Source: Xanthobacteraceae bacterium | GTDB lineage: Bacteria; Pseudomonadota; Alphaproteobacteria; Rhizobiales; Xanthobacteraceae | DNA: 64,000 bases | Direction: 5' to 3' | Assembly: GCA_019635585.1 (NCBI GenBank) | Contig: JAHBZE010000001.1 | Span: 806,001-870,000 of the forward strand | In this document: positions 6,188 to 62,961 of the stretch, one piece after another | Layout: each line of letters opens with the position of its first letter | How positions within the stretch are numbered: position 1 is the stretch's first letter | Position numbers and translations under genes: made by a program | The notes under the pieces: generated by a model | What the model was told of the DNA's origin: nothing | What the model saw: the letters and a program-made list of their open reading frames with translations, nothing else | Databases searched by the model: none

Positions 6188-6261
6188 CTATATTTGCGGC
6201 AGGGGCGACTCCTGCGCATTTTCCGGCGCGAGAAAATCAGCGGCTGCCGGCTCAGGCTTCC

Positions 6262-8850: not shown

Positions 8851-8890
8851 TTTTCGAAGAGGAGGCCACTGTGAATGGTGCTGCTCCAAC

Positions 8891-8927
8891 AAAAAACGCC
8901 GGCAGCCACTTCGGGCAGCCGGCGTTT
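8891..8927 (-). terminator. Rho-independent terminator of the acyl-CoA carboxylase operon
   Basis: Read on the minus strand, AACGCCGGC and GCCGGCGTT form a strong GC-rich stem closed by a short loop and followed by a run of six T residues. It lies 26 bases beyond the stop of the CMD gene at 8953. Confidence 0.85.
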
Positions 8928-8952
8928 CGCGATTTTCGGGGGATTGGCTGGA

Positions 8953-25668: not shown

Positions 25669-26340
25669 TTATTCTCCACCGACGCCGGTAATTTTGATTC
25701 CCGCGTCGGGAATTTTATACTTGCGATTAATCCAGATAAGCACCGACGTAAGGCTCTCCGCAACAACAGAGTTTGCGAGTGGTCCGACATCGATTCCTTT
25801 CAATCCAGCGTCGCCTGCCAACGATAAGCCGACCTGTCTTGCGTTGACGTCGTCGCTCGCGACCAGAACGTCGCATTCAATCTCGTAGTTCAGATCCTTC
25901 AACTTGTGCGCCGACACATTCTGAAATGCGGAAACGACCTTCGTTTGTTCGCCCAAGAATTTCTGAACGGCAACGACGCAGGAGTCCGACTCCGGAAGTT
26001 GCACCGTGGATACCTTCGGCGGGACCAACGGCACGGTGACGTCGATCAGCACCTTACCCGCGAGAACATCCTTCAAGCTTTCGACGGTCGAGCGCTGCGC
26101 CGAGAACGGAACGGTCAGCACGACAACATCGGCCTGTTGCACGCCGGCACGGCTTTCCATGCCCTCGACATTCTTTTTCCCGGTGAGCGCATTTATTGCG
26201 TCCACCGTGCTCCGCGCCTTCGATGCATCGCGCGAGCCGATGATCACGCGATGGCCATGAGCGGCCCAGCGCGCAGCGAGGCCGCTGCCTTCGGCGCCGG
26301 TGCCGCCGACGATGCAGATGGTTTTCTTATCTAAACTCAC
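25669..26340 (-). CDS. npdG: NADPH-dependent F420 reductase (F420H2:NADP+ oxidoreductase)
   Basis: A 223-residue protein of the FNO/NpdG family. The N-terminus KTICIVGGTGAEGSGLAARWA and HRVIIGSRD is the NADP-binding Rossmann unit in the form specific to F420-dependent NADP reductases. ADVVVLTVPFSAQ, VLIDVTVPLVPP and VSAFQNVSAHKL follow the same family. The frame opens at 26463, but a GTG at 26340 overlaps the fbiC stop in a GTGA and is preceded by GGGGGA, so I take GTG. Being translationally coupled to FO synthase supports the F420 role: it supplies F420H2 from NADPH. It is the last gene of the 12-gene operon. Confidence 0.9.
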   Translation of the reverse strand: MSLDKKTICIVGGTGAEGSGLAARWAAHGHRVIIGSRDASKARSTVDAINALTGKKNVEGMESRAGVQQADVVVLTVPFSAQRSTVESLKDVLAGKVLIDVTVPLVPPKVSTVQLPESDSCVVAVQKFLGEQTKVVSAFQNVSAHKLKDLNYEIECDVLVASDDVNARQVGLSLAGDAGLKGIDVGPLANSVVAESLTSVLIWINRKYKIPDAGIKITGVGGE

Positions 26341-28760
26341 AATTGTCCCCCAACTTCCAAACTGGTTTTGGCCGCACTGCTTTTTCTTTTGCCTACGAAC
26401 GGATCGAGAATGAGATCCGTCAACGGCGCTGCCTGATAGCTCTTTGCCTGCTGTCCCGGCCACGGCCTTGCGTAAAGAGTACTGCGCTGCTGCGGCGTCC
26501 TGCCCGCGCTTTCGATGAGTTCGTCCATGCTTTTCGGATCGAGTTCCTGCCCATGCTCGGTGCCGGCGGCGCGTGAAATGCTCTCGTTCATCAGCGTGCC
26601 GCCAAGATCATTGGCTCCGCCTTGCAGCAAGGCGCGTGCGCCGGCGGGGCCGACTTTCACCCATGATGCCTGAATGTTCGTAACAAGCGGATGCAGCGTC
26701 AGCCGGGCGATCGCATGCATCAGCCGCACCTCGCGCCATGTCGGACCTTTCCGCGCCTGCCCGCGAAGCGACATCGGCGCTTCCATATGTACGAAAGGAA
26801 GTGCCACGAATTCGGTGAGACCTCCCGTCTCGGCTTGCAAGTTGCGCAACGTCAATAGATGCTTCGCCCAGCTCACCGGCGTCTCCATGTGGCCGAACAT
26901 GATGGTCGACGTCGTCGGCAGGCCGCAGCGATGCGCCGTTCCGATCACCGACAGCCATTGCTGCGTATTGATCTTGTCGGCACAGATCACGCGGCGAACG
27001 TCATCGTGGAGGATTTCCGCCGCCGTACCCGGTAAGGAACCAAGCCCTTCGTCACGCAGCATCCGCAGGAACCGCTCGACCGGAATATTAAGCGTCGCCG
27101 CTCCCTGCGTTACCTCGAGCGGCGAGAACGCGTGAACGTGCATCTCGGGCACTTCGCACTTCACCGCTCTTACGAGATCGAGATAGGTCTGGCCGGTATA
27201 GTGCGGATTGATGCCGCCCTGCATGCAGACTTCGGTGGCGCCCCGCTCCCACGCTTCGCGCGCGCGTCGGGCCACTTCCGAGAGCGAAATATCGTACGGC
27301 TTACCGCGCAGGTGATCGTGGCTTTTACCCTTCGAGAAGGCGCAGAAGCTGCAACGATAGAGGCAGACGTTGGTGTAGTTGATATTCCGGTTGACGACAT
27401 AGCGGACGACATCGCCGCTCATCTTTCGACGCAATTCATCAGCGGCCGCAGCGATTTCCTCGACGGCTGCGTCCCGCGCGCCGAACAGCCTGACGACATC
27501 TTTCTCCGCAAGACGCTCGCCAGCTGAAGCGCGGTTCAGGAGATCGTCGAACCGGTGCGACGGATTTCGGGAGATCGAAGACGCCGGAATCGAAACCAGC
27601 GCGCCCGGCGCCCAATCGTCCTCTCGTGCGATGCCATTGCTATCCACCAGATGAAGCGCGCGGCGATGAACTTCAGGGTTCAGCCATTCGGGGCAAATAT
27701 ATTCCGGGTAAGCCGCGAGGCGCGGTACGAGCGAAAAGCCTGCCTTCTCGGTTTCGTTGCGAAGCATCGCGATCGCGGGCCAGGCCGCTTCGGGATTGAC
27801 GTGATCGACCGTCACCGGAGAAACGCCGCCCCAATCGTTGATGCCGGCCTCCAACAGCGCCGGATAATTCGAGTAACTCAGGTTCGGCGGAACCTGAATG
27901 TTCATTTCACCGCCGAGCACGATGCGCGCCGCTGCCGCCGTCCAGAGCAGATCGTCGAGATCTGGCTCATCGTTACCGGCGAAGCGCGTCGCGGCTTTGG
28001 CACGGAAGTTCTGGACGATGATTTCCTGAATGTGCCCATATTGACGGTGGAGATCGCGTAGCACGAGCAGCGACTGAATGCGCTCGAGCCGCGTCTCACC
28101 GATGCCGATCAGAATGCCGCTGGTGAACGGTACTTTGTGCCGTCCGGCCGCGGCAATCATGTCCAGCCGGACCGCCGGGTCTTTATCCGGCGATCCGAAA
28201 TGCGCGCCGCCACGCTCGCACAGGCGTTGCGAGATCGACTCCAGCATGATCCCTTGCGAAACGCTGACGTCCCGGAAGCCCGCGATTTCGTCTTCCGTCA
28301 TGACGCCCGCGTTCACATGCGGCAGCAGCGTCGTCTCCTTCAGGACAAGCTCGCACATCGCGCGCAGATATTCGTGCGTGGTCGCGTAACCGAGCGCCGC
28401 CAGCACCTCGCGCGCCGCCGCGTAACGCAATTCGGGCTTGTCGCCGAGCGTGAACAACGCTTCCGTGCATCCCGCGCGCTCGCCGGCTTTTGCGATTCTC
28501 AGCACTTCGTCCGGCGAAAGGTACGCGGATTTCAGGTGGCGCGGTGTCTTCGCAAAGGTGCAATAGCCGCAAGTGTCGCGGCAAAGCTGCGTCAGCGGGA
28601 TGAACACCTTGCGCGAATAGGAAATGTTGTGGCCGTGATGTTCGCGGGCAAGGTGCGACGCCTCACCAAGAAGATTAGCGAGCGGTACGGCTTCGAACCG
28701 CGAAAGCAGCGCTCTTGCTTCGCCGATCGCGTAGTCCTGCAATTTCGCCTTCTCGAACAT
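26337..28760 (-). CDS. fbiC: Bifunctional FO synthase (CofG-CofH fusion, FbiC)
   Basis: An 807-residue fusion of two radical-SAM enzymes that make FO (7,8-didemethyl-8-hydroxy-5-deazariboflavin), the chromophore of coenzyme F420. The N-terminal CofG half has its 4Fe-4S motif CRDTCGYC (Cys60, 64, 67); the C-terminal CofH half has CLYRCSFC (Cys466, 470, 473). Other conserved pieces are YGHIQEIIVQNFRAK and INDWGGVSPVT in CofG, and CMQGGINPHYTGQTYLDL and MFGHMETP in CofH. Length and domain order match actinobacterial FbiC. It starts at ATG 28760, ten bases after the aspartase gene, and its stop overlaps npdG. F420 genes are uncommon in proteobacteria. Confidence 0.97.
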   Translation of the reverse strand: MFEKAKLQDYAIGEARALLSRFEAVPLANLLGEASHLAREHHGHNISYSRKVFIPLTQLCRDTCGYCTFAKTPRHLKSAYLSPDEVLRIAKAGERAGCTEALFTLGDKPELRYAAAREVLAALGYATTHEYLRAMCELVLKETTLLPHVNAGVMTEDEIAGFRDVSVSQGIMLESISQRLCERGGAHFGSPDKDPAVRLDMIAAAGRHKVPFTSGILIGIGETRLERIQSLLVLRDLHRQYGHIQEIIVQNFRAKAATRFAGNDEPDLDDLLWTAAAARIVLGGEMNIQVPPNLSYSNYPALLEAGINDWGGVSPVTVDHVNPEAAWPAIAMLRNETEKAGFSLVPRLAAYPEYICPEWLNPEVHRRALHLVDSNGIAREDDWAPGALVSIPASSISRNPSHRFDDLLNRASAGERLAEKDVVRLFGARDAAVEEIAAAADELRRKMSGDVVRYVVNRNINYTNVCLYRCSFCAFSKGKSHDHLRGKPYDISLSEVARRAREAWERGATEVCMQGGINPHYTGQTYLDLVRAVKCEVPEMHVHAFSPLEVTQGAATLNIPVERFLRMLRDEGLGSLPGTAAEILHDDVRRVICADKINTQQWLSVIGTAHRCGLPTTSTIMFGHMETPVSWAKHLLTLRNLQAETGGLTEFVALPFVHMEAPMSLRGQARKGPTWREVRLMHAIARLTLHPLVTNIQASWVKVGPAGARALLQGGANDLGGTLMNESISRAAGTEHGQELDPKSMDELIESAGRTPQQRSTLYARPWPGQQAKSYQAAPLTDLILDPFVGKRKSSAAKTSLEVGGQL

Positions 28761-32737: not shown

Positions 32738-33222
32738 GCGCGCTCTCCCTGTTGCGAAAGGCGCTGTGCGGCGGCCATAATCGCATCCACGATCTTCTGA
32801 TAACCTGTGCAGCGGCAGAGCGTGCCCGCGATCGCCTCGCGCACGGATTCGCGCGTCGGGCGCGGGTTCTCATCCAGAAACGCTTTCGCCGTCATGATCA
32901 TGCCGGGAATGCAGTAGCCACATTGTACCGCGCCGAATTCGATGAATGCTTCCTGCAGAGGATGCAGCGCGGCACCCTCGGCTAGACCCTCTACCGTTGC
33001 TACCTGCCGGCCCTGACATTGCGCCGCCAACACGGTGCAGGACGCTACCGACTTGCCGTCGAGCACGACCGTGCATACGCCGCACTCGGCTTCAAGGCAG
33101 TTGGTCTTCGTTCCGGTCAACTCGAGTTCGTCGCGCAGAACGTCGAGCAGCGAATAATGAGCGGGAATGGAAAGCCGGTGCCGGCGTCCGTTCACGGTAA
33201 GATCAAGCTGCACTTCTGTCAT
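32734..33222 (-). CDS. Mo-hydroxylase 2Fe-2S subunit
   Basis: A 162-residue two-cluster ferredoxin-like subunit (CoxS type). The plant-ferredoxin cluster uses NCLEAECGVC (Cys42, 47, 50) plus Cys62 in ASC; the second, helical cluster uses QCGYCIPGM and LCRCTGY. It passes electrons from the molybdenum centre to the FAD subunit. It overlaps the FAD subunit by 20 bases upstream and the large subunit by 4 bases downstream, giving the order M-S-L typical of Cox-type operons. Confidence 0.95.
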   Translation of the reverse strand: MTEVQLDLTVNGRRHRLSIPAHYSLLDVLRDELELTGTKTNCLEAECGVCTVVLDGKSVASCTVLAAQCQGRQVATVEGLAEGAALHPLQEAFIEFGAVQCGYCIPGMIMTAKAFLDENPRPTRESVREAIAGTLCRCTGYQKIVDAIMAAAQRLSQQGERA

Positions 33223-34090
33223 CGTTCAGTTCCGAAATTCGATTCCAACTCAGTTCGACAACACGGCGCGCATAGACGCCGGCGAGATGGCGGCGAAAAC
33301 TTGCTGATGCGCGCACGTCATCGATCGGCGAAGCCGCAGCGGCGGCAAGCATGCCTGTCTCCTCCAGAACGTCTTTCGAGAGCACTTTGCCCTCCAGAAA
33401 CTTTTCCGCTTCCGTCAAGCGGATCGCTTTGGGACCGGCCGCACCCATCGCGAGCCGCACATCCGTCATCTTGCCGTCGGGCGACGCCGAGACGACACCG
33501 GCCATCGCTACGATCGAAATCTCCATCGCGCGGCGGCGTCCGCCCTTGAGAAACGTGGACGAAAATTTTTGCGCGGGCGCCGCGAATGCGATTTCGGTCA
33601 TTACTTCATCACTTGCCCGCACCGTCTTGCGGGGGCCTTCAATGAAGTTCGCAAGCGGAACGACGCGGCGGCCTTCGCTGCCGGCTAGCGCGACTTCCGC
33701 ATTGAGACAAAGCAGAATCGGCACCATGTCGGCGGCGGGCGAGGCATTGCAGAGGTTGCCGCCGACCGTCGCGACGTTGCGCACCTGATGGCCGCCGATC
33801 ACGCAAGCGCTTTCGCGCAGCGCTTCCAGCGCCCCTGCGAACCGGATTTCCCTTTCGATCTGACGGTGCGTGACTAGCGAACCGAGAGAAAAGTTCGGCC
33901 CAGTTCCCTTGATCTCGCCAAATCCGGGAATCTGCTGCAGGTTGATGACTGCTTCGGGCCAGGCTCCCGATTTGCGTGCCTGAATGATGAGATCGGTGCC
34001 GCCTGCGATAAACCGCGCAGCACCGCCTCTGGCTTTCGCCATTGTCACTGCATCCTGCAACGTTTGCGGCGCCAGAAATTCCAGTTTCAT
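33203..34090 (-). CDS. Mo-hydroxylase FAD-binding medium subunit
   Basis: A 295-residue CoxM-type FAD protein. ARFIAGGTDLIIQAR (residues ~25-39) and NVATVGGNLCNASPAADMVP are the two FAD pyrophosphate-binding motifs. VVPLANFIEGPRKT and the C-terminal CO_deh_flav_C domain follow. It starts at ATG 34090, 23 bases after the peptidase E gene, so it continues the same operon. No extra cysteine-rich loop is present here, unlike the FAD part of the fused enzyme at 41849-45226. Confidence 0.93.
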   Translation of the reverse strand: MKLEFLAPQTLQDAVTMAKARGGAARFIAGGTDLIIQARKSGAWPEAVINLQQIPGFGEIKGTGPNFSLGSLVTHRQIEREIRFAGALEALRESACVIGGHQVRNVATVGGNLCNASPAADMVPILLCLNAEVALAGSEGRRVVPLANFIEGPRKTVRASDEVMTEIAFAAPAQKFSSTFLKGGRRRAMEISIVAMAGVVSASPDGKMTDVRLAMGAAGPKAIRLTEAEKFLEGKVLSKDVLEETGMLAAAAASPIDDVRASASFRRHLAGVYARRVVELSWNRISELNDDRSAA

Positions 34091-38745: not shown

Positions 38746-39435
38746 ATGCAATCTATTACTGACGCTCTCGGTAACGGCCGGCCCGAGCCGGCATGGCGCA
38801 ATGCCTATCGCCAGCTGCGCATGGCGATCATCAACCGCGAACTCGCACCGCGGCTTCGCCTGATCGAAACCGATCTCGCGCAGACACTTGGCATCAGTCG
38901 CACTCCGCTTCGCGAAGCGCTCGCGCGTCTGGAAGTCGACGGGCTTGTGACGACGGCAAAAAGCGGCGGCTACGCCGTCTCCGACATGCGGGAAGATCTC
39001 TTCGACGCTTACGATCTTCGCGCCGCGATCGAAGGCTATGGCGCGCGGCTCGCCGCCGAACGCGTAACCGACGGCGAAATCAAGCGGCTGCGCGAGAACG
39101 TCACGATCAGCCAGCGGGTTGCCCTCTCGGACCGCAATCAACGCGCGCGACTCAACATCGAGTTCCACGAAATCGTCGTATCGGCCACACGCTCGCCGAA
39201 GATCATCCACGCCTTCACAAATATTCGCGATCTCATCCTGACGGACGAGGATATGACCCTGCATTCCGAGGAGGCGCATCAGCGCTTCATCCGCGAGCAC
39301 GATCTGATTACCTCGGCCATCGAAATGCGCGACGGCGATATTGCCGATCGCCTGATGCGAAAGCATCTGCTCAGTGCGCGCGAACTTCTGTTGCAGCGCC
39401 CGGACGCCGACAACGCAAGTTCTGGAGAATACTGA
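38746..39435 (+). CDS. GntR-family transcriptional regulator, FCD subfamily
   Basis: A 229-residue regulator with winged HTH (RLIETDLAQTLGISRTPLRE and VDGLVTTAKSGGYAV) and a C-terminal FCD helical bundle (LNIEFHEIV, the metal/effector region). The ATG at 38746 follows only a weak GGGG and overlaps a TGTATGCA element, suggesting autoregulation. It is divergent from the ABC-pepE-Mo-hydroxylase-fbiC operon and is followed two bases later by the LLM oxidoreductase gene, so it is the natural regulator of both directions. Confidence 0.92.
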   Translation: MQSITDALGNGRPEPAWRNAYRQLRMAIINRELAPRLRLIETDLAQTLGISRTPLREALARLEVDGLVTTAKSGGYAVSDMREDLFDAYDLRAAIEGYGARLAAERVTDGEIKRLRENVTISQRVALSDRNQRARLNIEFHEIVVSATRSPKIIHAFTNIRDLILTDEDMTLHSEEAHQRFIREHDLITSAIEMRDGDIADRLMRKHLLSARELLLQRPDADNASSGEY

Positions 39436-39437
39436 AA

Positions 39438-40442
39438 ATGAAGCTCGGCATTGCGATGCCATCGCGTCTGCCTATCCGTGAGCAGATGAAACTCGCGCAG
39501 ACCTGCGACCAGAGCGACATTTCGGTCTGGGTGCCGGACGAGCGCTTTTATCGCGACGTTTTCGTTACCATGGCCGGGATCGCCACAGCGACGTCGAAAA
39601 CTACCATCGGCACCGGCGTCACCGATCCCTTGATCCGCCACCCGCTTCTCACTGCGACGGCAATGGCGAGCGTTCACGAGTTATCCGGCGGACGCGCGAT
39701 CATGGGGATCGGCGCCGGCATCAGCGGCTTCGACGCGCTCGGTATCAAGCGGATCAGTCCGGCAACCGCGTTGCGCGACGCAGTAAGAGTTTGCCGCCAG
39801 TTCTGGAACGACGAAGCCGTCACGTTTGAAGGCAATAACTTCACAGCGAAGAATGCACACATGCATTTCAAGTCAAAGCAGGTTCCCGTCTATATCGCCG
39901 GGCGTGGCCCGCAGATTCTCGCTGCCGGAGGCGAGATGGGCGATGGCGTGATCATCGGTCACTTCACGTCCAAATCCGGCATCAGCTTCTGCCAGGAAAA
40001 CATCGGTAAGGGTTTGCAGAAGCGCGACACGACCATGGCGAAGCCCGAGATTGCGCTGTGGGCCTATACCTCGGTTTGCGAGGATGGAACGCTCGCACGA
40101 AATGCCGTAAAACCGGCAATCGGCCGCACGCTGAAGTCCACGCCGGAAGTGCTCGAGCTATTCGGCGTCAAGGCACCGGGGCTTCTCGAAGAGATCAATC
40201 GCTTCGGCTATGCCCGCTCGCGCGAATACGACGAGGCGATGTGGGCCGCCGTCCCCGACGAGCTGACGCTTCATCTTTCGATCTCCGGAACGCCGAAGGA
40301 ATGCGTAGAGCAATTGCAGCGCATCGCCGCGTGCGGTGTTACCCATATCATTGCGCTGCCCTACCCTGCCGAAGGCATGGGGCCGGTCGAAATGGCGGAT
40401 CTCTTGCGCAAGGAAGTCTTCCCGCAGGCACGCGACTTCTGA
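39438..40442 (+). CDS. Luciferase-like (LLM class) oxidoreductase, probably F420-dependent, Mer-like
   Basis: A 334-residue TIM-barrel protein of the bacterial luciferase superfamily. ISVWVPDERFYRDVFVTMAGIA, IGTGVTDPLIRHPLLTATAMASVHELSGGRAIMGIGAG and VPVYIAGRGPQILAAGGEMGDGVI closely follow the pattern of F420-dependent methylenetetrahydromethanopterin reductase-like (Mer) enzymes. ATG 39438 follows a GGAG, two bases after the GntR stop. Given fbiC and npdG in the divergent operon, F420 is the likely cofactor; FMN cannot be excluded from sequence alone. It would transfer hydride to, or from, a pathway intermediate. Confidence 0.88.
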   Translation: MKLGIAMPSRLPIREQMKLAQTCDQSDISVWVPDERFYRDVFVTMAGIATATSKTTIGTGVTDPLIRHPLLTATAMASVHELSGGRAIMGIGAGISGFDALGIKRISPATALRDAVRVCRQFWNDEAVTFEGNNFTAKNAHMHFKSKQVPVYIAGRGPQILAAGGEMGDGVIIGHFTSKSGISFCQENIGKGLQKRDTTMAKPEIALWAYTSVCEDGTLARNAVKPAIGRTLKSTPEVLELFGVKAPGLLEEINRFGYARSREYDEAMWAAVPDELTLHLSISGTPKECVEQLQRIAACGVTHIIALPYPAEGMGPVEMADLLRKEVFPQARDF

Positions 40443-40451: not shown

Positions 40452-41363
40452 ATGCCGCTCAAACAGGTCATTGATAGCTACGAACTCCTCGACAGCGCGC
40501 ATGTTGACGGCGAGAAAGTTTCTCGATTTCTGACGAGCGCGGGCGTCGAAAACATCGCGGTTCGGCGTATCACGTCTGACGCACACCACACCGATTTCAT
40601 GCAGATCGTCTGCAAGGGCCGTGACAGCACGGCGCCAAAACTCGGCATTATCGGCAAGCTCGGCGGCATCGGCGCGCGCCCAACCCAGATCGGCATCGTA
40701 TCAGACGCGGATGGGGCAATCGCAGTCGTCGCGCTCGCGCTCAAGATCGCGGCAATGGCCAAGGCCGGCGACCACTTGTCTGGGGATGTAATTCTCTCCA
40801 CGCATATCTGTCCGGCAGCGCCGACGCGGCCGCATCATCCGGTTCCGTTCATGTCCTCGCCGGTCGATCGCGATACGCTGTGCAAGGCGGAAATCCACGC
40901 GGAAATGAACGCCATTCTCAGCATCGACACCTCGCGCGGCAACAGGCTCGTGAACGCCAAGGGCGTCGCGATCACGCCGACCGTGCTGGACGGCTACATT
41001 CTCCCGGTCAGCTACGATCTCGTCGACATTCTGGAACGCGTCACCGCGCGGCACGCGCTTACGTTTCCGTTGTCGACGCAGGACATCACGCCCTACGCCA
41101 ACAATCTTTTCCATATCAATTCGATCATGCAGCCGGCGGCCTATGCCAGCGTGCCGGTCGTCGGTGTCGCAATCACCGCCGAAACCGCAGTGCCCGGCTG
41201 TGCGACCGGGGCAACGCAACTCGACGATATTGAAGCCGCCTGCCGCTTCTCGCTCGAGGTTGCGAAGACCTATGGCGCGAAGCAATGCTCGTTTTATAAC
41301 GCCGAAGAGTTTGCGAAGCTCAAGCAACTCTACGGCCCGATGACGCATCTGAAAGCGAAATAG
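40452..41363 (+). CDS. DUF1177 family protein
   Basis: A 303-residue protein I recognise as DUF1177. HTDFMQIVCKG, LGIIGKLGGIGARPTQIG, SDADGAI and GDVILSTHICPAAPTRPHHP are likely conserved blocks; several His, Asp and Cys in them could bind metal. The pattern HxD ... DADG ... GDVILSTH faintly recalls M20/M42-type metallohydrolases, but I would not assign a reaction. It starts at ATG 40452, nine bases after the LLM gene, and is followed nine bases later by a 2Fe-2S subunit, so it belongs to the F420/Mo-hydroxylase pathway. A hydrolase acting on the ring-opened product is one guess. Confidence 0.75.
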   Translation: MPLKQVIDSYELLDSAHVDGEKVSRFLTSAGVENIAVRRITSDAHHTDFMQIVCKGRDSTAPKLGIIGKLGGIGARPTQIGIVSDADGAIAVVALALKIAAMAKAGDHLSGDVILSTHICPAAPTRPHHPVPFMSSPVDRDTLCKAEIHAEMNAILSIDTSRGNRLVNAKGVAITPTVLDGYILPVSYDLVDILERVTARHALTFPLSTQDITPYANNLFHINSIMQPAAYASVPVVGVAITAETAVPGCATGATQLDDIEAACRFSLEVAKTYGAKQCSFYNAEEFAKLKQLYGPMTHLKAK

Positions 41364-41372: not shown

Positions 41373-41852
41373 ATGCGGATCGACTTTCGGATCAACGGAA
41401 TTGACCGATCGTTGCAGTTGTCGGGCGACGAGATGCTCGTGAACGTGATCCGTGAGCGGCTCGGACTCAGAGGCACCAAGGTCGGCTGCGGCAACGGCGA
41501 ATGCGGTGCCTGCACCGTTCACGTCGATGGCGAGGCGGTCTGCTCCTGCCTTTATCCGGCACATCGCGTGGCCGGACGTTCCGTGACGACGATCGAAGGG
41601 CTCGCTCCGGAAAATGCACTCTCCCCGGTTCAGGCAGCATTCGTTCGTCACGGCGCAGTGCAATGCGGTTTCTGCACCGGCGGCATGATCATGAGCGCGA
41701 GCGCGCTGCTCGCGCAAAACGCAAAACCCAGCGAGGCCGAAATCTCGCATGCGCTTGCCGGCAATATCTGCCGTTGCACCGGCTACCGTCAGATCATCGA
41801 CGCCGTGCTCGACGCAAGCGGACAAGGCAACGCGGATAGCGAACGGCCATGA
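41373..41852 (+). CDS. Mo-hydroxylase 2Fe-2S subunit
   Basis: A 159-residue two-cluster subunit. [10 protein letters not shown] supplies Cys39, 44 and 47 of the first cluster, with CSC at 57-59; the second cluster is in QCGFCTGGM and ICRCTGYRQ. It overlaps the fused Mo/FAD subunit by four bases (ATGA) and presumably forms a two-polypeptide enzyme with it. Confidence 0.95.
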
Positions 41853-44800
41853 GCCTCCACGAGGTCGGAAAGCGCCGTCATCAAGCCGGCATCGAGATGC
41901 GGGTTCGCGGCGGCGCGGTTTACACGCATGACATCGCCCTTCCCGGCATGCTGTTCGGTGCGATTCTGCGCAGCCCGCATCCGCACGCGAAAATCCTTTC
42001 GATCGATACTTCCGCAGCGCGCGCATTACGCGGCGTCCATGCCGTCATCACCAGCAAGGATTTCGGCGACCGCCGCTATTATCAACTTGGCGGCAGTTAT
42101 TCCGATCGTCCGCCGCTCGCGAATGAGAAAGTCCGCTATTGGGGCGAGGAAGTCGCGGCCGTCGCCGCGGAGACGCTTGCAGTCGCGGAACAGGCCTGTG
42201 CGCTGATTTCGGTCGAGTATGAGGCGCTCGCGCCGGTGTTTGCACCCGACGATGCGCTCGGCGCACAAGCGCCCGAAATCCACGGGCGTGAAAACGCACC
42301 CGGCGGCAAGAATCTCGCAATCCGCTTTTCCGCAAACTACGGCGATGTGGATGGCGCGGTCGCCCAAGCTGCATTCGTGCTCGAGGACGAGTTCCGGCAC
42401 GGGATTGTCGCCCCATCCTGCCTTGAGACAAACGGAACGGTCGCAAGTTACGACGCGGGTCAAGGCAAGCTCGACCTGTGGACCGCTACGCAGGCGCCCT
42501 ACTTCATCCGCAAGGAGGTCGCGCAGGCCGTCGGGCTCGACGAGAAACAGGTGCGCATTCGGTCGGTCGAAGTGGGCGGCGGCTTCGGCGGAAAATCTAA
42601 AATCTGCGAGCAGGAAGCGCTCGCGGCGATGCTGTCGATCAAGGCGAAGCGGCCGGTCAAGATCACGCTGAACCGGCGCGAGGAATTCGTCAGTGGCAAG
42701 ACCGATCACGCCAAGCGCGTCCGCATCAGGACCGCGGTCGCCGAGGACGGGCGCATCCTCAATCGCAACGTGTCCGTGCAGATCGACAACGGCGCCTACA
42801 CTGCCTACGCTCCGACTTATGTTGGCGCATCGCGGCAGCGAACCACCTGTCTCTATCGCGTCGAGACCGCGCATTACGACTGCGATCTGGTTTACACCAA
42901 CAAGGTTCCGGGCGGTCAGTATCGCGGCATGGGCGCGCCGCATACGATCTGGGCGATCGAAAGCCACATGGACGAGATCGCGTCCCGGCTGAAACGCGAC
43001 CCGCTCGAGTATCGCATCGCGCAAGCGAACCAGCCCGGCGACGTCACTCCCCTGAAGTGGCGGATCAGCACTTGCGGACTGACCGAATGCCTCGAAGCTG
43101 CCGGACGAATGATCGGCTGGGACGAGAAGCGAAAATCTTCCGCGCCGTTACGCGGCGTGGGCGTCGCCTCGATGATCCATCCGAGCGGCGGCGTGATCTA
43201 TCAGGAAGGAAACTTTGCGAATACCCGCATCGAACTGACTGCCGAAGGCCGCGTCATAGTCCATACCCAGACGGCGGATACCGGTACCTGGCAGAATACG
43301 ACGCTCGCGCAGGTCGCGGCCGAAGCGCTCGGCGTCGGCACCGACGACGTTTTCGTCTCGCACATGGATACCGAGGACGCGCCGCCGGATCTCGGCAGTG
43401 CTGCGTCGCGCGTGACCTTCGTCACGGGCAACGCAACGCTTCGCGCCGGTGAAAACCTGAAGGCAAAGATTCTTTCCGCGCTATCGCGCCAATGGAACTG
43501 CGGCGTGGAGGACATCGCGATCGAGAGCGGTGTCGCACGTCATATCTACGAGCCGAACCGCACAGCCGATCTTCTCGAAATTGCGCGGCTCGCGGGACCG
43601 CTGGATGCGGAAGGCTACTTCAGCACCCCCGGCGAACGGCCCGATCCGAAGACCGGCGAAGGCAACTATGCCGCGACTTACGTCTTCGGCGCGCAGGCGG
43701 CAGAGGTCGAAGTCGACCGCAATACCGGACGCATTACGGTGCTCCGCATGGCGGTCGCGCAGGATGTCGGCCGCGCGCTCAACCCGACCGCGGTCGAAGG
43801 CCAGATTTATGGCGGCGTGCTGCAGGGCATCGGCATGGCGCTGCAAGAGGAAATGGTTTTCGAGGAAGGCCGTCCGGTCAACGCTTCGTTCCTCGATTAC
43901 GCCGTGCCTCGTATTGGCAGCGCACCCAAGATCGATATTGCACTCGTCGAAACCGACGATCCGCTCGGTCCGTACGGCGCGAAGGCCGGCGCTGAACCGA
44001 CGATCAACGCAACAATCGCTGCGATCGCCAACGCTGTTTTCCATGCGACGGGCATTCGCTTCAAGGAATTGCCGATGTCGCCGGATCGCGTGCTTTCGGC
44101 ACTCGAAGCCAAAGACGGCAACAAGCCTGCGCTGAAACCTTGGAAGCGCGTATATAATGCCGAGGTTGCGACCGTGCGCGCGATGTATCCGAATGTCGTG
44201 TTTCCAGCGCTGCGTAGCGTTGGCACCAAATTCGCGCGTTTGCCGAAGAAGTCGAAACAGCCGCGCACCCTTGTGCCCGGCAACGCGAACGAACTCGTCG
44301 AGTTTCTTTCGAACAAAAATACGAAAAGCCGGATTGTTGCCGGCGGCACCGACATCTTCGTCGGCCTGAAACAGGGTATCTACGATCTCGACCAGTTGGT
44401 CGACGTCAGCAGGCTTCCGGAATTGCAAGGAATTTCGTTCGCGGAGAACGATCTCTCCACGCTTCGTATTGGCGCGGCGATGACGCTCGACAAGATTGCG
44501 CGCAACGAACTGGTTGCCCGCTTCTTCCCGTCGCTCGCGTCCTGCATAAGCCTGATCGCGACACCGCAGATCCGCCGCGTTGCCACCATCGCCGGCGATC
44601 TTTGCCAGGAAAAGCGCTGCTGGTTCTTCCGCAGCGCCTTTCCCTGCTACAAGCTCGGCGGACCCACCTGCCCGTGTTTCGCGGTGCTCGGCGACAACCG
44701 TCATCATTCGATCAACGGCGCGAAGCGCTGCGCCGCGCCCAATCCTTCCGACCTCGCGCCATTGCTTTCGTCGCTGAGCGCATGCGCCGTCGTAGTCGGC

Positions 44801-45226
44801 CGTTCAGGCAAGCGATCCATTCCGATCGAGGAGCTTTATCTCTGGTCCGGACTTACCAAAGTCGGGAGCGACGAGGTCATCGAAGCGATCGAAATTCCGC
44901 TCGCGCCGAATACCACGGCCTCGTTCGAGAAATTCGGATTGCGGCAAGGCGACTTCGCCGAGGCCTCGGTCGCCGTTCGGGCCCAATGGGCGAACGATTC
45001 CGTGTCCACGCTTCGCATATTTGCAGGCGCTGTTTCACCCTTGCCGCTGCGCGCTGCCAAGGCCGAAGCGCTGCTTACCGGTACCCGGCTTGAGCCGGAT
45101 GCCGTTGCCGAAGCTGCCGCCACCATCGTCGAAGGCAGCCTCCCGCTCGAAGACAATCAATACAAGGTTCCGCTTCTCATCAATCTGACGAAGCAGGCGT
45201 TGCTTGCCGCACGCAGGCGCAACTAG
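41849..45226 (+). CDS. Fused Mo-hydroxylase: molybdopterin subunit plus FAD subunit with cysteine-rich (HcrB-like) loop
   Basis: An 1125-residue fusion. Residues 1-~760 are a CoxL-type molybdopterin subunit: VEVGGGFGGKSKICEQEA, GGQYRGMGAPHTIWAIESHMDEI and GAKAGAEPTINATIAA with the predicted catalytic Glu. Residues ~790-1125 are a CoxM-type FAD subunit (IVAGGTDIFVGLK; RRVATIAGDLCQ; C-terminal flavoprotein domain). Between the second FAD motif and NPSDLAPLL there is an insertion with Cys919, 924, 933, 941, 943 and 961. An insertion at this place in the beta subunit of 4-hydroxybenzoyl-CoA reductase binds a [4Fe-4S] cluster. The usual separate M gene is absent here. The enzyme may therefore work reductively or at low potential; the substrate is unknown. 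Confidence 0.9.
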   Translation: MSLHEVGKRRHQAGIEMRVRGGAVYTHDIALPGMLFGAILRSPHPHAKILSIDTSAARALRGVHAVITSKDFGDRRYYQLGGSYSDRPPLANEKVRYWGEEVAAVAAETLAVAEQACALISVEYEALAPVFAPDDALGAQAPEIHGRENAPGGKNLAIRFSANYGDVDGAVAQAAFVLEDEFRHGIVAPSCLETNGTVASYDAGQGKLDLWTATQAPYFIRKEVAQAVGLDEKQVRIRSVEVGGGFGGKSKICEQEALAAMLSIKAKRPVKITLNRREEFVSGKTDHAKRVRIRTAVAEDGRILNRNVSVQIDNGAYTAYAPTYVGASRQRTTCLYRVETAHYDCDLVYTNKVPGGQYRGMGAPHTIWAIESHMDEIASRLKRDPLEYRIAQANQPGDVTPLKWRISTCGLTECLEAAGRMIGWDEKRKSSAPLRGVGVASMIHPSGGVIYQEGNFANTRIELTAEGRVIVHTQTADTGTWQNTTLAQVAAEALGVGTDDVFVSHMDTEDAPPDLGSAASRVTFVTGNATLRAGENLKAKILSALSRQWNCGVEDIAIESGVARHIYEPNRTADLLEIARLAGPLDAEGYFSTPGERPDPKTGEGNYAATYVFGAQAAEVEVDRNTGRITVLRMAVAQDVGRALNPTAVEGQIYGGVLQGIGMALQEEMVFEEGRPVNASFLDYAVPRIGSAPKIDIALVETDDPLGPYGAKAGAEPTINATIAAIANAVFHATGIRFKELPMSPDRVLSALEAKDGNKPALKPWKRVYNAEVATVRAMYPNVVFPALRSVGTKFARLPKKSKQPRTLVPGNANELVEFLSNKNTKSRIVAGGTDIFVGLKQGIYDLDQLVDVSRLPELQGISFAENDLSTLRIGAAMTLDKIARNELVARFFPSLASCISLIATPQIRRVATIAGDLCQEKRCWFFRSAFPCYKLGGPTCPCFAVLGDNRHHSINGAKRCAAPNPSDLAPLLSSLSACAVVVGRSGKRSIPIEELYLWSGLTKVGSDEVIEAIEIPLAPNTTASFEKFGLRQGDFAEASVAVRAQWANDSVSTLRIFAGAVSPLPLRAAKAEALLTGTRLEPDAVAEAAATIVEGSLPLEDNQYKVPLLINLTKQALLAARRRN

Positions 45227-45255: not shown

Positions 45256-45966
45256 ATGACAGACAAGAGCCCAGCCGCCGCGACCTATGCCGAGCAGTTC
45301 CGGAGCGATCCGGACTGGATTAATGCTTTCGATAGCCGGATGAAACGCCTCGAGTCCGGAGAACTCGACGAGAAATCGCGGGAGCTCGTCTTCGTGGTCG
45401 GACATCTGATCAATAACTACGGCGAAGCGGCGAAGTATCACCAGCAACGCGCGCGCCGTGCTGGCGCCAACGACGACGACTTCCGCTTGATTCTGAAGAT
45501 TCTCGACTTCTATCGCGGCCTTCGCATCTTTCAGGACGCGCAGAAACTCGTTTCGATCTGGCGAACCGGCAACTTTCCCGAATTGAAAGCGCCTATCAAA
45601 GGCTCCACGGCCGAGATTTATCAGAAGATCATCGAGAGCCGCACCTATATCGCGAATGGCTTTCGCGTCTATGGCGCGGACGGCGAATGGCTTAAGCTCT
45701 ATCTCCAGCGCTCGGACGCGGTGAAAAAATCGCCGAAGACGCTCGACGAGCGGCTGGTGCAATTGATCTCGATGGCGATCACGCTCAAAAATCACCGCTA
45801 TTCCAACAACTGGAATGACGGCTGCATTCAGGTTCACGAAGACAAGTCGCGCGCGCTCGGCACGACGCCGCAGCAAATCCTAGAAGTCGTCCAGATTCTA
45901 GAAATCTGCGACTCGCTCTTTACCGCTTATCAGGGACAAACCCTGCTCGAACTGAATACAAACTGA
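45256..45966 (+). CDS. Double carboxymuconolactone-decarboxylase-like protein
   Basis: A 236-residue protein with two CMD-type helical repeats: SRELVFVVGHLINNYGEAA ... HQQRARRAGANDDD (about 40-75) and DERLVQLISMAI ... VHEDKSRALGTTPQQILEV (about 165-220). The CxxC of AhpD is absent in both; one Cys precedes the second His (CIQVHED). It starts at ATG 45256, 29 bases after the fused enzyme, following AAGAAGG, and is the last gene of the plus-strand unit before a terminator. Related proteins occur in degradation clusters, but the reaction here is not known. Confidence 0.78.
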   Translation: MTDKSPAAATYAEQFRSDPDWINAFDSRMKRLESGELDEKSRELVFVVGHLINNYGEAAKYHQQRARRAGANDDDFRLILKILDFYRGLRIFQDAQKLVSIWRTGNFPELKAPIKGSTAEIYQKIIESRTYIANGFRVYGADGEWLKLYLQRSDAVKKSPKTLDERLVQLISMAITLKNHRYSNNWNDGCIQVHEDKSRALGTTPQQILEVVQILEICDSLFTAYQGQTLLELNTN

Positions 45967-50401: not shown

Positions 50402-51037
50402 CTAGCGAGAGTCTCCCTGCGCCTTTTCGCGCGGAAGCTCCCGATGTTTTTTCCATTCAAGATAATCGTCCGGTTCGTCGATATCGAAGGCGAGTTCGCG
50501 CACGCGCCGGATGTCGAGCGACAAACCGCGCTGCCTTGCTTCTCGGCAATGCGCTTCAAAACTCGCCTCGCCGTAGGCAAAACGCCACTCGGGCAGCGCC
50601 TTGCCGCGCAACATCAGGATGTTGGTGCCCGCCTCGCCACGATCCGGAACGATCGTGACATCCGCGCCGTTCGCGATGATCGAGAGCAGCGACGTTTTCG
50701 TCGCGAGCGGAAGATCAATCGGCAGAACGAGACAAGACTGCCAACGGCTGAGGGTAATAATGTCATCGCGTGCACCCGCGATCGCCGTGTTCAAGTCCGG
50801 CCAGTCCTTCGCAAAAATCTGAATGCCTGCGTCTCGCGCAATCCGTCCCGCTTCCGCGTCGGCAGTTAGGAGACAGACATTTTCCTGCCCCGCGGTGTCG
50901 GCGGCAAGACGAAGCGTATTGATGAGCAGTTCACGGCAAAGACGTTCGCGCTCACCGGCGTCGAGCAATTCCGCGAGCCGCGACTTGCCATAAGCCAGCG
51001 ACTTGCAAGGTACCAGCACGAGCGGCATCGCACTCAT
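50402..51037 (-). CDS. cofC: 2-phospho-L-lactate (or related) guanylyltransferase CofC/FbiD
   Basis: A 211-residue nucleotidyltransferase of F420 synthesis. VLVPCKSLAYGKSRLA (residues 7-22) is the GTP-binding signature, LVLPIDLPLATK is the metal-Asp region and TIVPDRGEAGTNIL is the CofC-specific motif. It transfers GMP to 2-phospholactate, phosphoenolpyruvate or 3-phosphoglycerate depending on lineage; the substrate used here cannot be read off. ATG 51037 overlaps the cofD stop by ATGA. Confidence 0.94.
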   Translation of the reverse strand: MSAMPLVLVPCKSLAYGKSRLAELLDAGERERLCRELLINTLRLAADTAGQENVCLLTADAEAGRIARDAGIQIFAKDWPDLNTAIAGARDDIITLSRWQSCLVLPIDLPLATKTSLLSIIANGADVTIVPDRGEAGTNILMLRGKALPEWRFAYGEASFEAHCREARQRGLSLDIRRVRELAFDIDEPDDYLEWKKHRELPREKAQGDSR

Positions 51038-51990
51038 CGCTTCGCCACCTCGCGCGCGAACCGTAACGATTCTTCCGCAAGCGTAATGCGATCGGCATCG
51101 GACTTCATGACGGTATTGGTGACGCGAACCTTGATGCCGAGCGCTTGGATCTCGCTCTGCAGTTCGGAATCAGAACTATCGATCAACAGCCCGTCGATAA
51201 TGCCGCGATAATGCGCAGCGACGGTCTTCGCCGACGGCTCGTGCCCCAGCTCGCGCATGATTTTCGCAGCCGGTCCCTTGATCGCCGTGCCGGCGACAAT
51301 CGGCGAAACGGCAACCACAGGCGCGCCGAGCCTTCGCAGCCACTCGCTAAATCCGGAAATACTCAGGATTGGATCGATGCTGAGATATGGATTGGACGGG
51401 CAGAACACCACGGCATTGAGCGAACCGGGCGCGATGCTCCCGAGCAGTTCATTCATTCTTGCAGTATCCGCGCCCCGAAACTCGAGCCGGTCGACGCGCG
51501 GGCCGCATTGCAACTTGACGAAATATTCCTGAAACGGAATCGCAAGCTTGCCGCTATGAACGATCGTCCGCACCGGATCGTCCGACATCGGCAGCAGCTT
51601 CGCCCTGACGCCATATGCGGCACAGAGTTCTTTCGTGACGCGCGACAGTGAGTGACCATCGGCAAGACGCGACGTCCGCAGCACGTGGTTTGCGATATCC
51701 TTGTCGCCGAGCCTGAACCAAGCCGGTCCATCGAGCCGCTCGAGCTGCGCAATGAAATTCCAGGTTTCGCCCTCGAGTCCCCAGCCTTGTGATTTGTTCG
51801 CAACACCTCCGAGTGTGAACATCACGGTGTCGAGATCGGGCGAGATATGCAGGCCGAGATGTTCGAAATCGTCGCCGGTATTCACGACTACGGTAAGCGC
51901 GTCACCGACCGCATGCTGAAGGCCGGCGGCGAGTTTCGCGCCGCCAACACCGCCCGCCAACGCCAGTACACCTCTATGTGCGCTGTTCAC
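51034..51990 (-). CDS. cofD: 2-phospho-L-lactate transferase CofD/FbiA
   Basis: A 318-residue transferase that joins the activated phospholactate-type unit to FO, giving F420-0 (or dehydro form). VLALAGGVGGAKLAAGLQ, NTGDDFEHLGLHISPDLDTVMFTL and FCPSNPYLSIDPIL are definitive CofD motifs. The frame is open to 52140, but GTG 51990 forms a GTGA overlap with the cofE stop, has AAGGA upstream and starts right before the conserved fold. It lies between cofE and cofC in one operon. Confidence 0.95.
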   Translation of the reverse strand: MNSAHRGVLALAGGVGGAKLAAGLQHAVGDALTVVVNTGDDFEHLGLHISPDLDTVMFTLGGVANKSQGWGLEGETWNFIAQLERLDGPAWFRLGDKDIANHVLRTSRLADGHSLSRVTKELCAAYGVRAKLLPMSDDPVRTIVHSGKLAIPFQEYFVKLQCGPRVDRLEFRGADTARMNELLGSIAPGSLNAVVFCPSNPYLSIDPILSISGFSEWLRRLGAPVVAVSPIVAGTAIKGPAAKIMRELGHEPSAKTVAAHYRGIIDGLLIDSSDSELQSEIQALGIKVRVTNTVMKSDADRITLAEESLRFAREVAKR

Positions 51991-52742
51991 CGGAACAAAT
52001 CCTTGTTCTTCGGGCGAAGCAGCGCGCCGCTCTGCGCATCCCTGCGGAGTAGCGAGGCGCCCGCCGCGTGAACGATCGGCCAGCCCTCCGACGCTTGCCC
52101 CATGACGAGCGAAGCGGCGGATGCGAGTTCGTCGCCCCATCCGACTTCCGTGGTTTCGAGACGGCGGCCGAACAGATCGGGTTTTCCCCGCAGATCGAGC
52201 AGCGTCTCAACACCGCTCGAACCGATTAGCGTGCCGACGGTGCCATTGCGCCACGCGCGGCCGATGCTGTCGATCACCATGATGCCGGCGTCGATGCCTG
52301 CAAGCCTCTGGATGTCATTCCGGATTCGCTGCGCAGAAGCATCGGGGTCAAGTGGCAAAAGCAGCGCGTGCTCCTCGCCGCCGATGTTCGAGCGGTCGAT
52401 CCCAGCATTCGCAAGAACAAACCCTAGCCGGTGCTGGACGATGATAACGCCGGGGAGCGCGCGCAGAACCTCGTTCGACTCCGAAAGCACAAGCTCGATG
52501 ATCCGCGGATCCTTCTCGGTAGTCTTTCCAAGCTCGACGGCCTTTGCCGATGGCGCGACGGAGTCGAGCCGCACGAGACGGCCTTCGGCCTTCGACACGA
52601 CCTTCTGCGCGAAGACCAACACGTCGCCATTCCGCAACGTGACGCCGGACGCCGAGATGGCATCGAGTACGACTGCCGCAAGATCGTCGCCTTCCGCGAT
52701 CATCGGCACGCCCGCGAGGGGGGTCAACGTCAGGCCACTCAT
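51987..52742 (-). CDS. cofE: Coenzyme F420-0:L-glutamate ligase CofE
   Basis: A 251-residue gamma-glutamyl ligase that adds glutamate to F420-0. GDVLVFAQKVVSKAEGR, HRLGFVLANAGIDRSNIG and GLVDSIGRAW-like IDSIGRAWRNGT segments match the CofE family, and DELASAASLVMGQ is the C-terminal conserved block. The actinobacterial FbiB C-terminal FMN-reductase domain is absent, so the protein is the stand-alone archaeal/proteobacterial type. GTG 52754 opens the frame, but ATG 52742 follows GAGGTGA with normal spacing. It starts 44 bases after the LLM gene. Confidence 0.95.
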   Translation of the reverse strand: MSGLTLTPLAGVPMIAEGDDLAAVVLDAISASGVTLRNGDVLVFAQKVVSKAEGRLVRLDSVAPSAKAVELGKTTEKDPRIIELVLSESNEVLRALPGVIIVQHRLGFVLANAGIDRSNIGGEEHALLLPLDPDASAQRIRNDIQRLAGIDAGIMVIDSIGRAWRNGTVGTLIGSSGVETLLDLRGKPDLFGRRLETTEVGWGDELASAASLVMGQASEGWPIVHAAGASLLRRDAQSGALLRPKNKDLFR

Positions 52743-52786
52743 TAGCCCCTTCACCTCGGACGCATGGAAATAACGTCCGGCTTAAA

Positions 52787-53791
52787 CTAACTCGCCTTCG
52801 CCATCACGTCCTTCGCGAACCACTCGATCTGGTCGTTCATTTCGCTGACGCTATTGGCCGGGAACATCAGCGCGCTGCAATGATCGATCCCGATCGATTT
52901 CAGCTTTGCGACCTTCTCCAGAATGACGTCCGGCGACCCGACCAGATTCGCTACTACCTGATGGCTGAGATCGCGGCCAGTATAGGCGAGCGAAACGCGA
53001 TGCGCGACCAAGCCGCTTTCCATGTAGCGCTTTTCCGCAGCTTCCATGGTTTTGTCGATCGTCACCGAGAACTGCGGCGCGATCTCGATTTCGGCGGGGT
53101 CGCGGCCCAGCTCGGCCGCGCGCTCTTTGAGCTTTACGATGCGTTCGGCAAGCTCGTTCAGGGGGCGCCAGCCGGGCAACCAGCCCTGTCCGTAACGTGC
53201 CGCGCGCTCGAGCGCCTCCAGATTGTGTCCACCGATATAGAGTGGGAACGGTTGCTTCCGGCTCTTCGGAAACATTTCGACGTCCTTGAACGAGTAATAC
53301 TTTCCTTCGAAGCTCGCGCTCTTCTCGGTGAAGAGCATGTCGAGCGACTTCAGCCCCTCATCCATCATGTCGCCGCGGCGTGACTTCGCTGCGCGCGAGC
53401 CGGCCCAGGCTTGAAACTCCTCGCGGTAGGCGCCGAGGCCGACCGCCAGAATGAAGCGGCCGTTCGACATCTGGTCGAGCGAAATCACCTGCTTGGCGAG
53501 ATAAACCGGGTCACGCATCGGCAACACGCAGAGCGCGGTGCCGAGCTTGAGCTTCGTCGTGACCGCGCCGATCGCAGCAAGCACGATGAGAGGTTCGTAG
53601 AAATTCGGCGGCGTATCGGGAAACAGGTTTCGCACATAATCCTGCGTGGTGACGTGGTCGTTACCCCATACCGAGTCATAGCCGAGGCGCTCGCAGAGCT
53701 TGCCCTGCTCGATAAAGTCTTCCGGCCCCGCAAACGGGATCGGATACATCACGCCTTCAAATCCCGTCGAAAGGCATACGCTGAATTTCAT
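52787..53791 (-). CDS. Luciferase-like (LLM class) oxidoreductase, probably F420-dependent
   Basis: A 334-residue luciferase-superfamily TIM barrel. MKFSVCLSTGFEG, GYDSVWGNDHV, LIVLAAIGAVTTKLKLGTALCVLPMRDPVYLAKQVISLDQMSNGRFILAVG and PLYIGGHNLEALERAARYGQGWLPG show the cofactor-binding barrel of F420/FMN LLM enzymes. ATG 53791 overlaps the next LLM gene's stop (ATGA), and cofE follows. Direct linkage to cofEDC argues for F420 as cofactor. Confidence 0.9.
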   Translation of the reverse strand: MKFSVCLSTGFEGVMYPIPFAGPEDFIEQGKLCERLGYDSVWGNDHVTTQDYVRNLFPDTPPNFYEPLIVLAAIGAVTTKLKLGTALCVLPMRDPVYLAKQVISLDQMSNGRFILAVGLGAYREEFQAWAGSRAAKSRRGDMMDEGLKSLDMLFTEKSASFEGKYYSFKDVEMFPKSRKQPFPLYIGGHNLEALERAARYGQGWLPGWRPLNELAERIVKLKERAAELGRDPAEIEIAPQFSVTIDKTMEAAEKRYMESGLVAHRVSLAYTGRDLSHQVVANLVGSPDVILEKVAKLKSIGIDHCSALMFPANSVSEMNDQIEWFAKDVMAKAS

Positions 53792-54753
53792 GGTTCACTC
53801 CCACCAATCTTGAGAAGCCTGGATATTTGCGCAGCGTCACGAACGCCGGCGATGACGACATCGTCGAGACCCGCAGCCCGATACATCTCGAAACGTTCCG
53901 CGACCTGTGACGGAGTTCCGCTGGCGGTGTGCTGCCGGACGATATCGTCCGTAATCAGCGACTCCGCGGTCTGCCAATCATCGTCGAGCACAGCGCGATT
54001 GAGTTTTTCCTGATCGAGCCGACTTCCCGCCGCATCGAGATTTGCGCGGTGGTGCGGTCCGCGCAGCAGGATCGAGAGCACGCGCCGCAGCCGGTCGTTC
54101 GCCGTCCGCTCATTGTCATCGATAGAGGAATACACGAGGCCATGCGTCTGCACGCGCCTTCCCTTGGCGCCGCGCCGCACGTGTTCAAGCGTCTGTTTCA
54201 CGAACGGCACCGATGCGCCGGCGCTGATCAAGACGCCATCCGCCTCGGCCCCGGCAAGTTCGAGCATTCCGGGACCGGACGCGGCAAGCACAATCGGCAC
54301 GTTGCGCGCGCCGACCACCAGCGATCGGGACGAAATCGAAAAGTGCTCGCCCTCGTATCGAACCGTTTCGCCCTGCAACAGCGCTTTTGCGATCTTCAAC
54401 GTTTCGCGCATCATCCTGAGCGGCTTCGTGCCGTCGATCGACAATGCATTGAGGTCGGCGGGCGCACCGGCACCGAAACAGAGCGTGACACGGCCATGAA
54501 ACATTTCGTCGAGCGTAGCTGCCGCCATAACTGCCTGCACCGGATGCACCGTGAACGGGCTTACAGCCATCAGCGCGACGCTCATCGAAGAGGCGCGGCT
54601 TAATGCGACGGCGGAGAGCGTGATCGGATCGCGAAGGAACAGATGGTTCGCGATCCAAAGCGATCTCGCCCGCCCTCGGTCGGCGGCTTCGACCTTTTCC
54701 AAGAATTGTTGCGCGGTATCGCGACCGTCGCAGGAAACCGAAAGCTCAAACAA
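53788..54753 (-). CDS. Luciferase-like (LLM class) oxidoreductase, probably F420-dependent
   Basis: A 321-residue LLM protein, shorter and divergent from its neighbour. ARSLWIANHLFLRDPIT, VALMAVSPFTVHPVQAVMAAATLDEMFHGRVTLCFGAGAP and NVPIVLAASGPGMLELAGAEADGVLIS match Mer-like F420 enzymes. The start is a TTG at 54753, preceded by GGTGA six bases before and overlapping the 2Fe-2S gene's stop by eight bases; no ATG/GTG is available near the fold start. It sits between the Mo-hydroxylase subunits and the second LLM gene. Confidence 0.87.
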   Translation of the reverse strand: MFELSVSCDGRDTAQQFLEKVEAADRGRARSLWIANHLFLRDPITLSAVALSRASSMSVALMAVSPFTVHPVQAVMAAATLDEMFHGRVTLCFGAGAPADLNALSIDGTKPLRMMRETLKIAKALLQGETVRYEGEHFSISSRSLVVGARNVPIVLAASGPGMLELAGAEADGVLISAGASVPFVKQTLEHVRRGAKGRRVQTHGLVYSSIDDNERTANDRLRRVLSILLRGPHHRANLDAAGSRLDQEKLNRAVLDDDWQTAESLITDDIVRQHTASGTPSQVAERFEMYRAAGLDDVVIAGVRDAAQISRLLKIGGSEP

Positions 54754-56081: not shown

Positions 56082-56082
56082 G

Positions 56083-56535: not shown

Positions 56536-56538
56536 CGC

Positions 56539-62117: not shown

Positions 62118-62148
62118 GTTTCGCGGCGCTCGCCGCCTATTGCACCAA

Positions 62149-62952: not shown

Positions 62953-62961
62953 AATCGGCCT

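Follow-up and report, generated by a model that had tools for sequence, protein, structure and literature searches.

A conserved molybdenum-FAD subunit fusion with a PaoB-type cysteine loop and its suggestive link to F420 genes in Alphaproteobacteria

A stretch of 64,000 nt from a Xanthobacteraceae bacterium (GenBank assembly GCA_019635585.1, contig JAHBZE010000001.1, positions 806,001 to 870,000 of the forward strand; hereafter the window) contains a gene in which the molybdenum (Mo) and flavin adenine dinucleotide (FAD) subunits of a molybdenum enzyme appear as a single polypeptide with a Cys-rich loop. The locus raises the question whether this fusion is genuine and whether the loop marks a reductase like 4-hydroxybenzoyl-CoA reductase (HCR; HcrABC, 1rm6) or an oxidative hydroxylase. 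Our analysis assigns the protein to a conserved fusion clade, a variant within a known enzyme family, whose loop is of the type found in PaoB, the FAD subunit of the Escherichia coli aldehyde oxidoreductase PaoABC, rather than of the HCR type. The gene is a single open frame of 1125 residues according to its translation (41849-45226, plus strand) and is arranged with its small subunit as follows:

41373..41852, plus strand: [2Fe-2S] small subunit (PF00111, PF01799), overlapping the start of the fused gene by 4 bases
41849..44119, plus strand: Mo (molybdopterin) part, residues 1-757 (PF01315, PF02738, PF20256; the model matches HcrA, 1rm6_D, over 4-758 with Z 46.6)
44120..44263, plus strand: linker, residues 758-805, with a predicted helix at 769-795 (row conservation; model)
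44264..45223, plus strand: FAD part, residues 806-1125 (PF00941, PF03450; the separate model matches 5y6q_B, 5g5g_B and 1rm6_B)
44603..44731, plus strand: Cys-rich loop, residues 919-961, with Cys 924, 933, 943 and 961 as probable [4Fe-4S] ligands (row conservation; PaoB match)

That the large and medium subunits form one chain of 1125 residues, as a preliminary description of this DNA had put it, is confirmed by the open frame, the Pfam domains, an orthologue and a paralogue; the Mo-FAD fusion is real. The Mo domains lie at 21-693 and the FAD domains at 808-1119 of the chain. Ald_Xan_dh_C, MoCoBD_1, MoCoBD_2 and FAD_binding_5 each score above the Pfam cut-off, which places the protein in the xanthine oxidase family, and five domains of this family are the only Pfam domains in the chain. 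Glu716, near the C-terminus of the Mo domain, is kept in 45/45 aligned rows, and we take it to be the catalytic-type Glu of the family. Orthologues are present in 2/7 other genomes of the genus, with 93% (L011) and 84% identity. Furthermore, the source genome (3.2 Mb, 2 contigs) harbors a second fused gene just beyond the window at C1:871842-875174, which is 52% identical (L002). The 93% orthologue and this paralogue rule out an assembly or frameshift artefact. None of the eight further Mo-subunit matches in the source genome is fused, as judged by their frames. At L008 of this genome, rejected as a fusion, the Mo and FAD genes share a frame that is interrupted by a stop.

A pattern-led scan with the FAD part over a collection of 84,980 species, which may have missed members, returned 50 loci from Alphaproteobacteria and Actinobacteria, together with one betaproteobacterial record and a few whose title reads just ‘bacterium’. 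The FAD match and an N-terminal Mo domain share one frame in 47/50 loci, the exceptions being L066 and L089, which start at a contig edge, and L078, in two frames. These two frames (5623-9089, Nocardioides alcanivorans), one for the Mo and one for the FAD part, overlap, by natural split or sequence error. Judged from these sequences, the fused enzymes are a small family across two bacterial phyla. In an even draw of 289 members of the class of the source organism, matches below an E-value of 1e-180 occurred in the source genome only, both fused. Matches at 1e-40 or better were found in 33/289 members, the source genome and G190 included, and the listed lengths of the remaining matches (325-650, not every frame checked) are too short for a fusion. 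Two apparent fusions with HcrB-type FAD parts were discarded: in G190, the FAD part sits in a frame of 1133 residues and the Mo gene in a different one, and in L019 the long frame with the FAD part differs from that of the Mo gene.

A quick maximum-likelihood tree without bootstrap was calculated from 104 FAD domains gathered by similarity to the fused proteins, with L089 and the short L088 left out. The 49 domains labelled as fused (the window and 48 loci, L066 and L078 included) form one side of a branch with a Shimodaira-Hasegawa-like approximate likelihood ratio test (SH-aLRT) value of 95, and a wider branch, also with SH-aLRT 95, comprises these together with 22 PaoB-type unfused rows and L033. 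A single origin of the fusion would be the simplest reading of this topology, not a proof. The adjacent unfused Mo and FAD genes of L033 were rejected as a pre-fusion state, the linker motif being absent from the end of the Mo gene and the start of the FAD gene. The earlier description of the arrangement as novel stands in so far as our literature searches, with most subscription journals outside their coverage, found no paper on the clade; it falls in that the clade is recurrent and a fusion lacking the loop exists elsewhere. The latter is encoded on the Salmonella enterica conjugative plasmid CP054717 (L135, 5950-9162), outside the clade. It has the same Mo-then-FAD order and aligns over 98% of the query, but differs by its low identity (27%), the missing Cys loop, the order fusion then [2Fe-2S], and a purine permease and ygfT nearby.

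Within the clade the linker is well conserved. The stretch 757-805 is 46-61 residues long in 45/45 rows, with Arg777 and Tyr780 in 45/45, and forms a helix at 769-795 in the whole-chain model. This model, built from the 45-row alignment, reached a mean predicted local distance difference test (pLDDT) score of 90.7 and a predicted template modelling (pTM) score of 0.92, with the blocks at 921-960 in the Cys loop at 80-82. The best fold match of the Mo part is HcrA (root mean square deviation (rmsd) 2.1, 749 aligned), in a tie with carbon monoxide (CO) dehydrogenase 1n63_B (Z 46.3, rmsd 2.9, 743 aligned). Since most of the listed structure matches of the whole chain (VIA) end near residue 760, the FAD part was also folded alone (pLDDT 92.5). 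Its top match is the medium subunit of the Methylobacillus aldehyde oxidase (5y6q_B; Z 38.2, rmsd 1.9, 318 aligned), followed by PaoB (5g5g_B; Z 36.1, rmsd 2.1, 307 aligned) and HcrB (1rm6_B; Z 34.9, rmsd 2.4, 306 aligned), with CO dehydrogenase (Z 33.6) and others lower. PaoB and 5y6q_B share both the fold of the FAD subunit and the Cys loop, but they are separate subunits, unlike the fused window protein. The chain also misses the cut-off of the PaoC equivalog NF041671 (298 vs 1180 bits). According to the accessible text of PMC3958847, PaoA carries a twin-arginine translocation leader; inspection of the window small subunit revealed none.

The type of the loop was read from its Cys pattern. 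The FAD part has Cys at 899, 919, 924, 933, 941, 943, 961 and 979, and six Cys within 43 residues anywhere in the chain occurred in 44/20000 shuffles of its own residues. All six loop Cys described previously are found at their positions, but only Cys 924, 933, 943 and 961 hold as a feature of the family. These are invariant in 50/50 rows (the window and 49 of the 50 loci, L089 being left out for its low score and contig edge), whereas Cys occurs at 919 in 21/50 and at 941 in 34/50 rows, a variability that rules out all six as ligands. The two peptide patterns of the scan included Cys 924 and Cys 943, which were thus partly selected for, so that the selection-free evidence comes from Cys 933 and Cys 961. 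In a pairwise alignment, with numbers counted along it, the four residues face PaoB Cys 119, 129, 138 and 157 (4/4). The corresponding alignment to HcrB pairs them with Cys122, Trp130, Cys138 and Cys155 (3/4 Cys) and sets HcrB Cys146 opposite Arg951. We assume that the PaoB set and the HcrB set (Cys 122, 138, 146 and 155) are [4Fe-4S] cluster ligands. The accessible texts of PMC3958847, PMC12771579, PMC2997495, PMC4287710, PMC10434068 and PMC8498797 do not state the PaoB cluster. The alignment to 5y6q_B shows an offset of one residue at Cys933. As judged from these alignments, the four residues are probably ligands of a PaoB-type [4Fe-4S] cluster.

The HcrB alignment bears out that the insertion lies where HCR has its extra [4Fe-4S] cluster, and the other two FAD subunits of the window (33203-34090 and 55200-56081) lack it, as noted before. 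The loop itself had been called HCR-like; one HcrB ligand position differs and all four PaoB positions match, and thus it is no argument for reduction. In 22 other loci (L090-L099, L101-L112), FAD subunits that are not fused show the PaoB spacing as well. The unfused FAD subunits of L019, L020 and L137 have their Cys spaced as in HcrB and are candidate relatives of true HCR.

The fused gene is part of a run of genes that includes a protein related to F420-dependent methylene-tetrahydromethanopterin reductase (Mer):

38746..39435, plus strand: GntR-like regulator, head of the gene run (named by inspection of the translation, not by domain search; homologues in L040 and L041)
39438..40442, plus strand: luciferase-like oxidoreductase, Mer-related (start deduced from L040; NF002619 185 bits, cut-off 276; 8qpm_A, E 5e-44; both matches computed on 39414-40439)
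40452..41363, plus strand: DUF1177 protein, a recurrent alphaproteobacterial neighbour (PF06675, E 1.3e-117)
45256..45966, plus strand: carboxymuconolactone decarboxylase-family protein (PF02627; homologues in L040 and L041)

Mer is both the best solved and the best model match of the luciferase-like protein, which scores below the Mer cut-offs (in addition to NF002619, TIGR03555 with 176 vs 348.7 bits). The two luciferase-like proteins tested, from the window and L044, each fit the Mer model best and stay below its cut-off. Between the window protein and its counterparts, the identity is 96% for L040, 61% for L041 and 24-30% for the other loci. The proteobacterial set comprises 25 loci (L040-L058, L073-L075, L079, L084, L085); L050 (‘uncultured bacterium’) was assigned to it, and L063 to the actinobacterial set, by tree position. 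DUF1177 is encoded in 13/25 of these loci (L040-L048, L051, L053, L057, L058), each time together with a luciferase-like gene, and in just 2/289 class genomes. The order DUF1177, luciferase-like, [2Fe-2S], fusion is found in 10/13 loci; the luciferase-like gene comes first in L040, L041 and the window, and in L057 both neighbours follow the fusion. DUF1177 had no match in the PDB at an E-value of 1, and a literature search on it gave no substrate lead.

In addition, the window harbors a complete set of genes for F420:

25669..26463, minus strand: NpdG, NADPH-dependent F420 reductase (TIGR01915 195 bits, cut-off 150; start probably further in)
26337..28760, minus strand: FbiC (CofGH), F420 biosynthesis (NF006687 1120 bits, cut-off 1018)
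50402..52754, minus strand: CofC, CofD and CofE, F420 biosynthesis (TIGR03552 134 bits, cut-off 105; TIGR01819 285, cut-off 257; TIGR01916 253, cut-off 181)

All of these score above equivalog cut-offs and lie among apparently catabolic alphaproteobacterial genes, and the source genome contains a second CofD. In Ferrovibrio (L041), the fused gene is followed by an FbiC gene at a distance of about 2 kb. CofD was searched in 43 genomes of the scan loci (L046 left out; L054, L055, L065, L084, L088 and L089 share a record series with included loci) and was detected in 35/43 (34 above cut-off) vs 44/289 in the class (43 above). The 22 genomes of the actinobacterial clade all have a match, 21 of them above cut-off, as expected from the wide occurrence of F420 in Actinobacteria described in the accessible text of PMC8498797. 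Among the 21 other genomes, CofD is present in 12/12 with DUF1177 and luciferase-like neighbours and in 1/9 without both. Some genomes lacking CofD are metagenome bins, in which the absence may be a gap. Fisher's exact test (4e-5) overstates the case, there being few independent contrasts: starred branches gave one independent pair and the full set of branches three, numbers that do not suffice for a sign test. An F420 dependence of the whole fusion family was rejected, as 8/9 proteobacterial-set genomes without both neighbours show no CofD, and the family overall thus seems not to need F420. The tie of the fused gene to F420 genes is therefore suggestive, on the basis of gene content.

Two more luciferase-like genes are present at 52787-58800 of the window, one above the F420 cut-off of TIGR03619 and one Mer-like. 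They adjoin a third, unfused set of the xanthine oxidase type, so that a Mo hydroxylase is again paired with a Mer-like gene.

Our best explanation, held as probable with moderate confidence, is a two-chain molybdenum hydroxylase of the xanthine oxidase family made up of the small [2Fe-2S] subunit and the Mo-FAD fusion. The Mo site would hydroxylate a carbon of the N-heteroaromatic or aldehyde type, with water as the source of oxygen. Electrons would leave Mo over two [2Fe-2S] clusters and reach FAD and a [4Fe-4S] cluster, held near FAD by the four loop Cys as in PaoB, and then an acceptor, and the linker helix would hold the FAD part in its docked position. Within the gene run of the alphaproteobacterial loci, the Mer-like and probably F420-dependent luciferase-like enzyme and DUF1177 may act in the same pathway. 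Oxidative hydroxylation is the most likely direction, which we infer from relatives. This derivation itself weighs against the explanation, as do the lack of any substrate indicated by the data, the closeness of the Mo part, in sequence and fold, to HcrA, a reductase subunit, above all other solved structures, and the Foldseek ranking of the FAD part, which puts HcrB first. The last two points and the placement of the loop would suit a reductase like HCR, in which the [4Fe-4S] cluster takes up low-potential electrons that move on to Mo and remove a hydroxyl group; HCR is not the only reductive member of the family that has been published (accessible text of PMC12771579). Reduction is possible, with the kinship to HcrA as its support, and we regard a reductase of this kind as unlikely. 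An unfused Mo subunit of the window (30455-32737) reaches 534 bits on the HcrA model, nearly the same as the fused chain, and so this resemblance is general. HcrABC differs further in its separate subunits and in the one Cys position. The earlier proposal of a reductive or low-potential enzyme is disfavored by the PaoB-type loop, the wide margins by which the chain misses the HCR alpha and beta equivalogs (TIGR03194, 555 vs 994.55 bits; TIGR03195, 154 vs 404.55 bits), two heme-copper oxidase matches in the source genome and the lack of a PF06050 match there. The latter tests only for enzymes of that family, which presumably includes class I benzoyl-CoA reductase subunits.

The FAD part could alternatively pass electrons to F420 and give F420H2 to the neighbouring luciferase-like enzyme, which would make the protein a hydroxylase and F420 reductase in one. 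The Mer-like gene beside the fused gene set, the complete F420 set of the window, CofD in all genomes with both neighbours and the nearby FbiC in L041 agree with this route. It appears rather improbable, considering the genomes without both neighbours and CofD (several of them metagenome bins), the window NpdG, which can supply F420H2, and the exclusive detection of xanthine-oxidase-family domains by Pfam. A structural loop whose redox cluster was lost or replaced by another metal would fit the lower model confidence of this region and a cluster that is predicted from sequence; the invariance of the four Cys and their match to PaoB make it very improbable. Beyond the hydroxylase reading, it is conceivable, if somewhat doubtful, that the fused Mo-FAD-[4Fe-4S] hydroxylases, DUF1177 and the Mer-like F420 enzyme form a catabolic module explaining F420 in these alphaproteobacteria, with Mo hydroxylation before or after F420-dependent hydride transfer; in the boldest form, the fused enzyme would exchange electrons with F420.

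A FAD part with an additional Cys cluster site is not by this alone marked as a reductase, and HCR-like first readings thus need a check of the ligand pattern. For the xanthine oxidase family, the clade is a clear example of subunits fused through a conserved linker. The more novel part of the finding is the tie to F420 genes, suggestive as it is: why Proteobacteria make F420 is named as an open question in the Outlook of PMC8498797 (seen in part), and the gene neighbourhood makes this question testable.

The second branch of the tree holds the Actinobacteria and six alphaproteobacterial loci. One representative was annotated per neighbour cluster. The representatives resemble dihydropyrimidinase, TRZ/ATZ aminohydrolase, RutB and amidases, as well as SsuA-type binding proteins and two-subunit sulfopyruvate-decarboxylase-like enzymes; none of those tested reached an NCBIfam cut-off. 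These likenesses hint at breakdown of N-heterocycles in the second-branch loci, and those to dihydropyrimidinase, TRZ/ATZ aminohydrolase and RutB speak for the hydroxylase reading. Finally, a second cluster (window 61473-63744, L032 and L054) combines the fused paralogue, an unfused Mo enzyme and a luciferase-like gene with an NMT1/SsuC-type transporter, IclR and a flavin reductase. It largely recurs in Ferrovibrio L056, a genome that shows no CofD.

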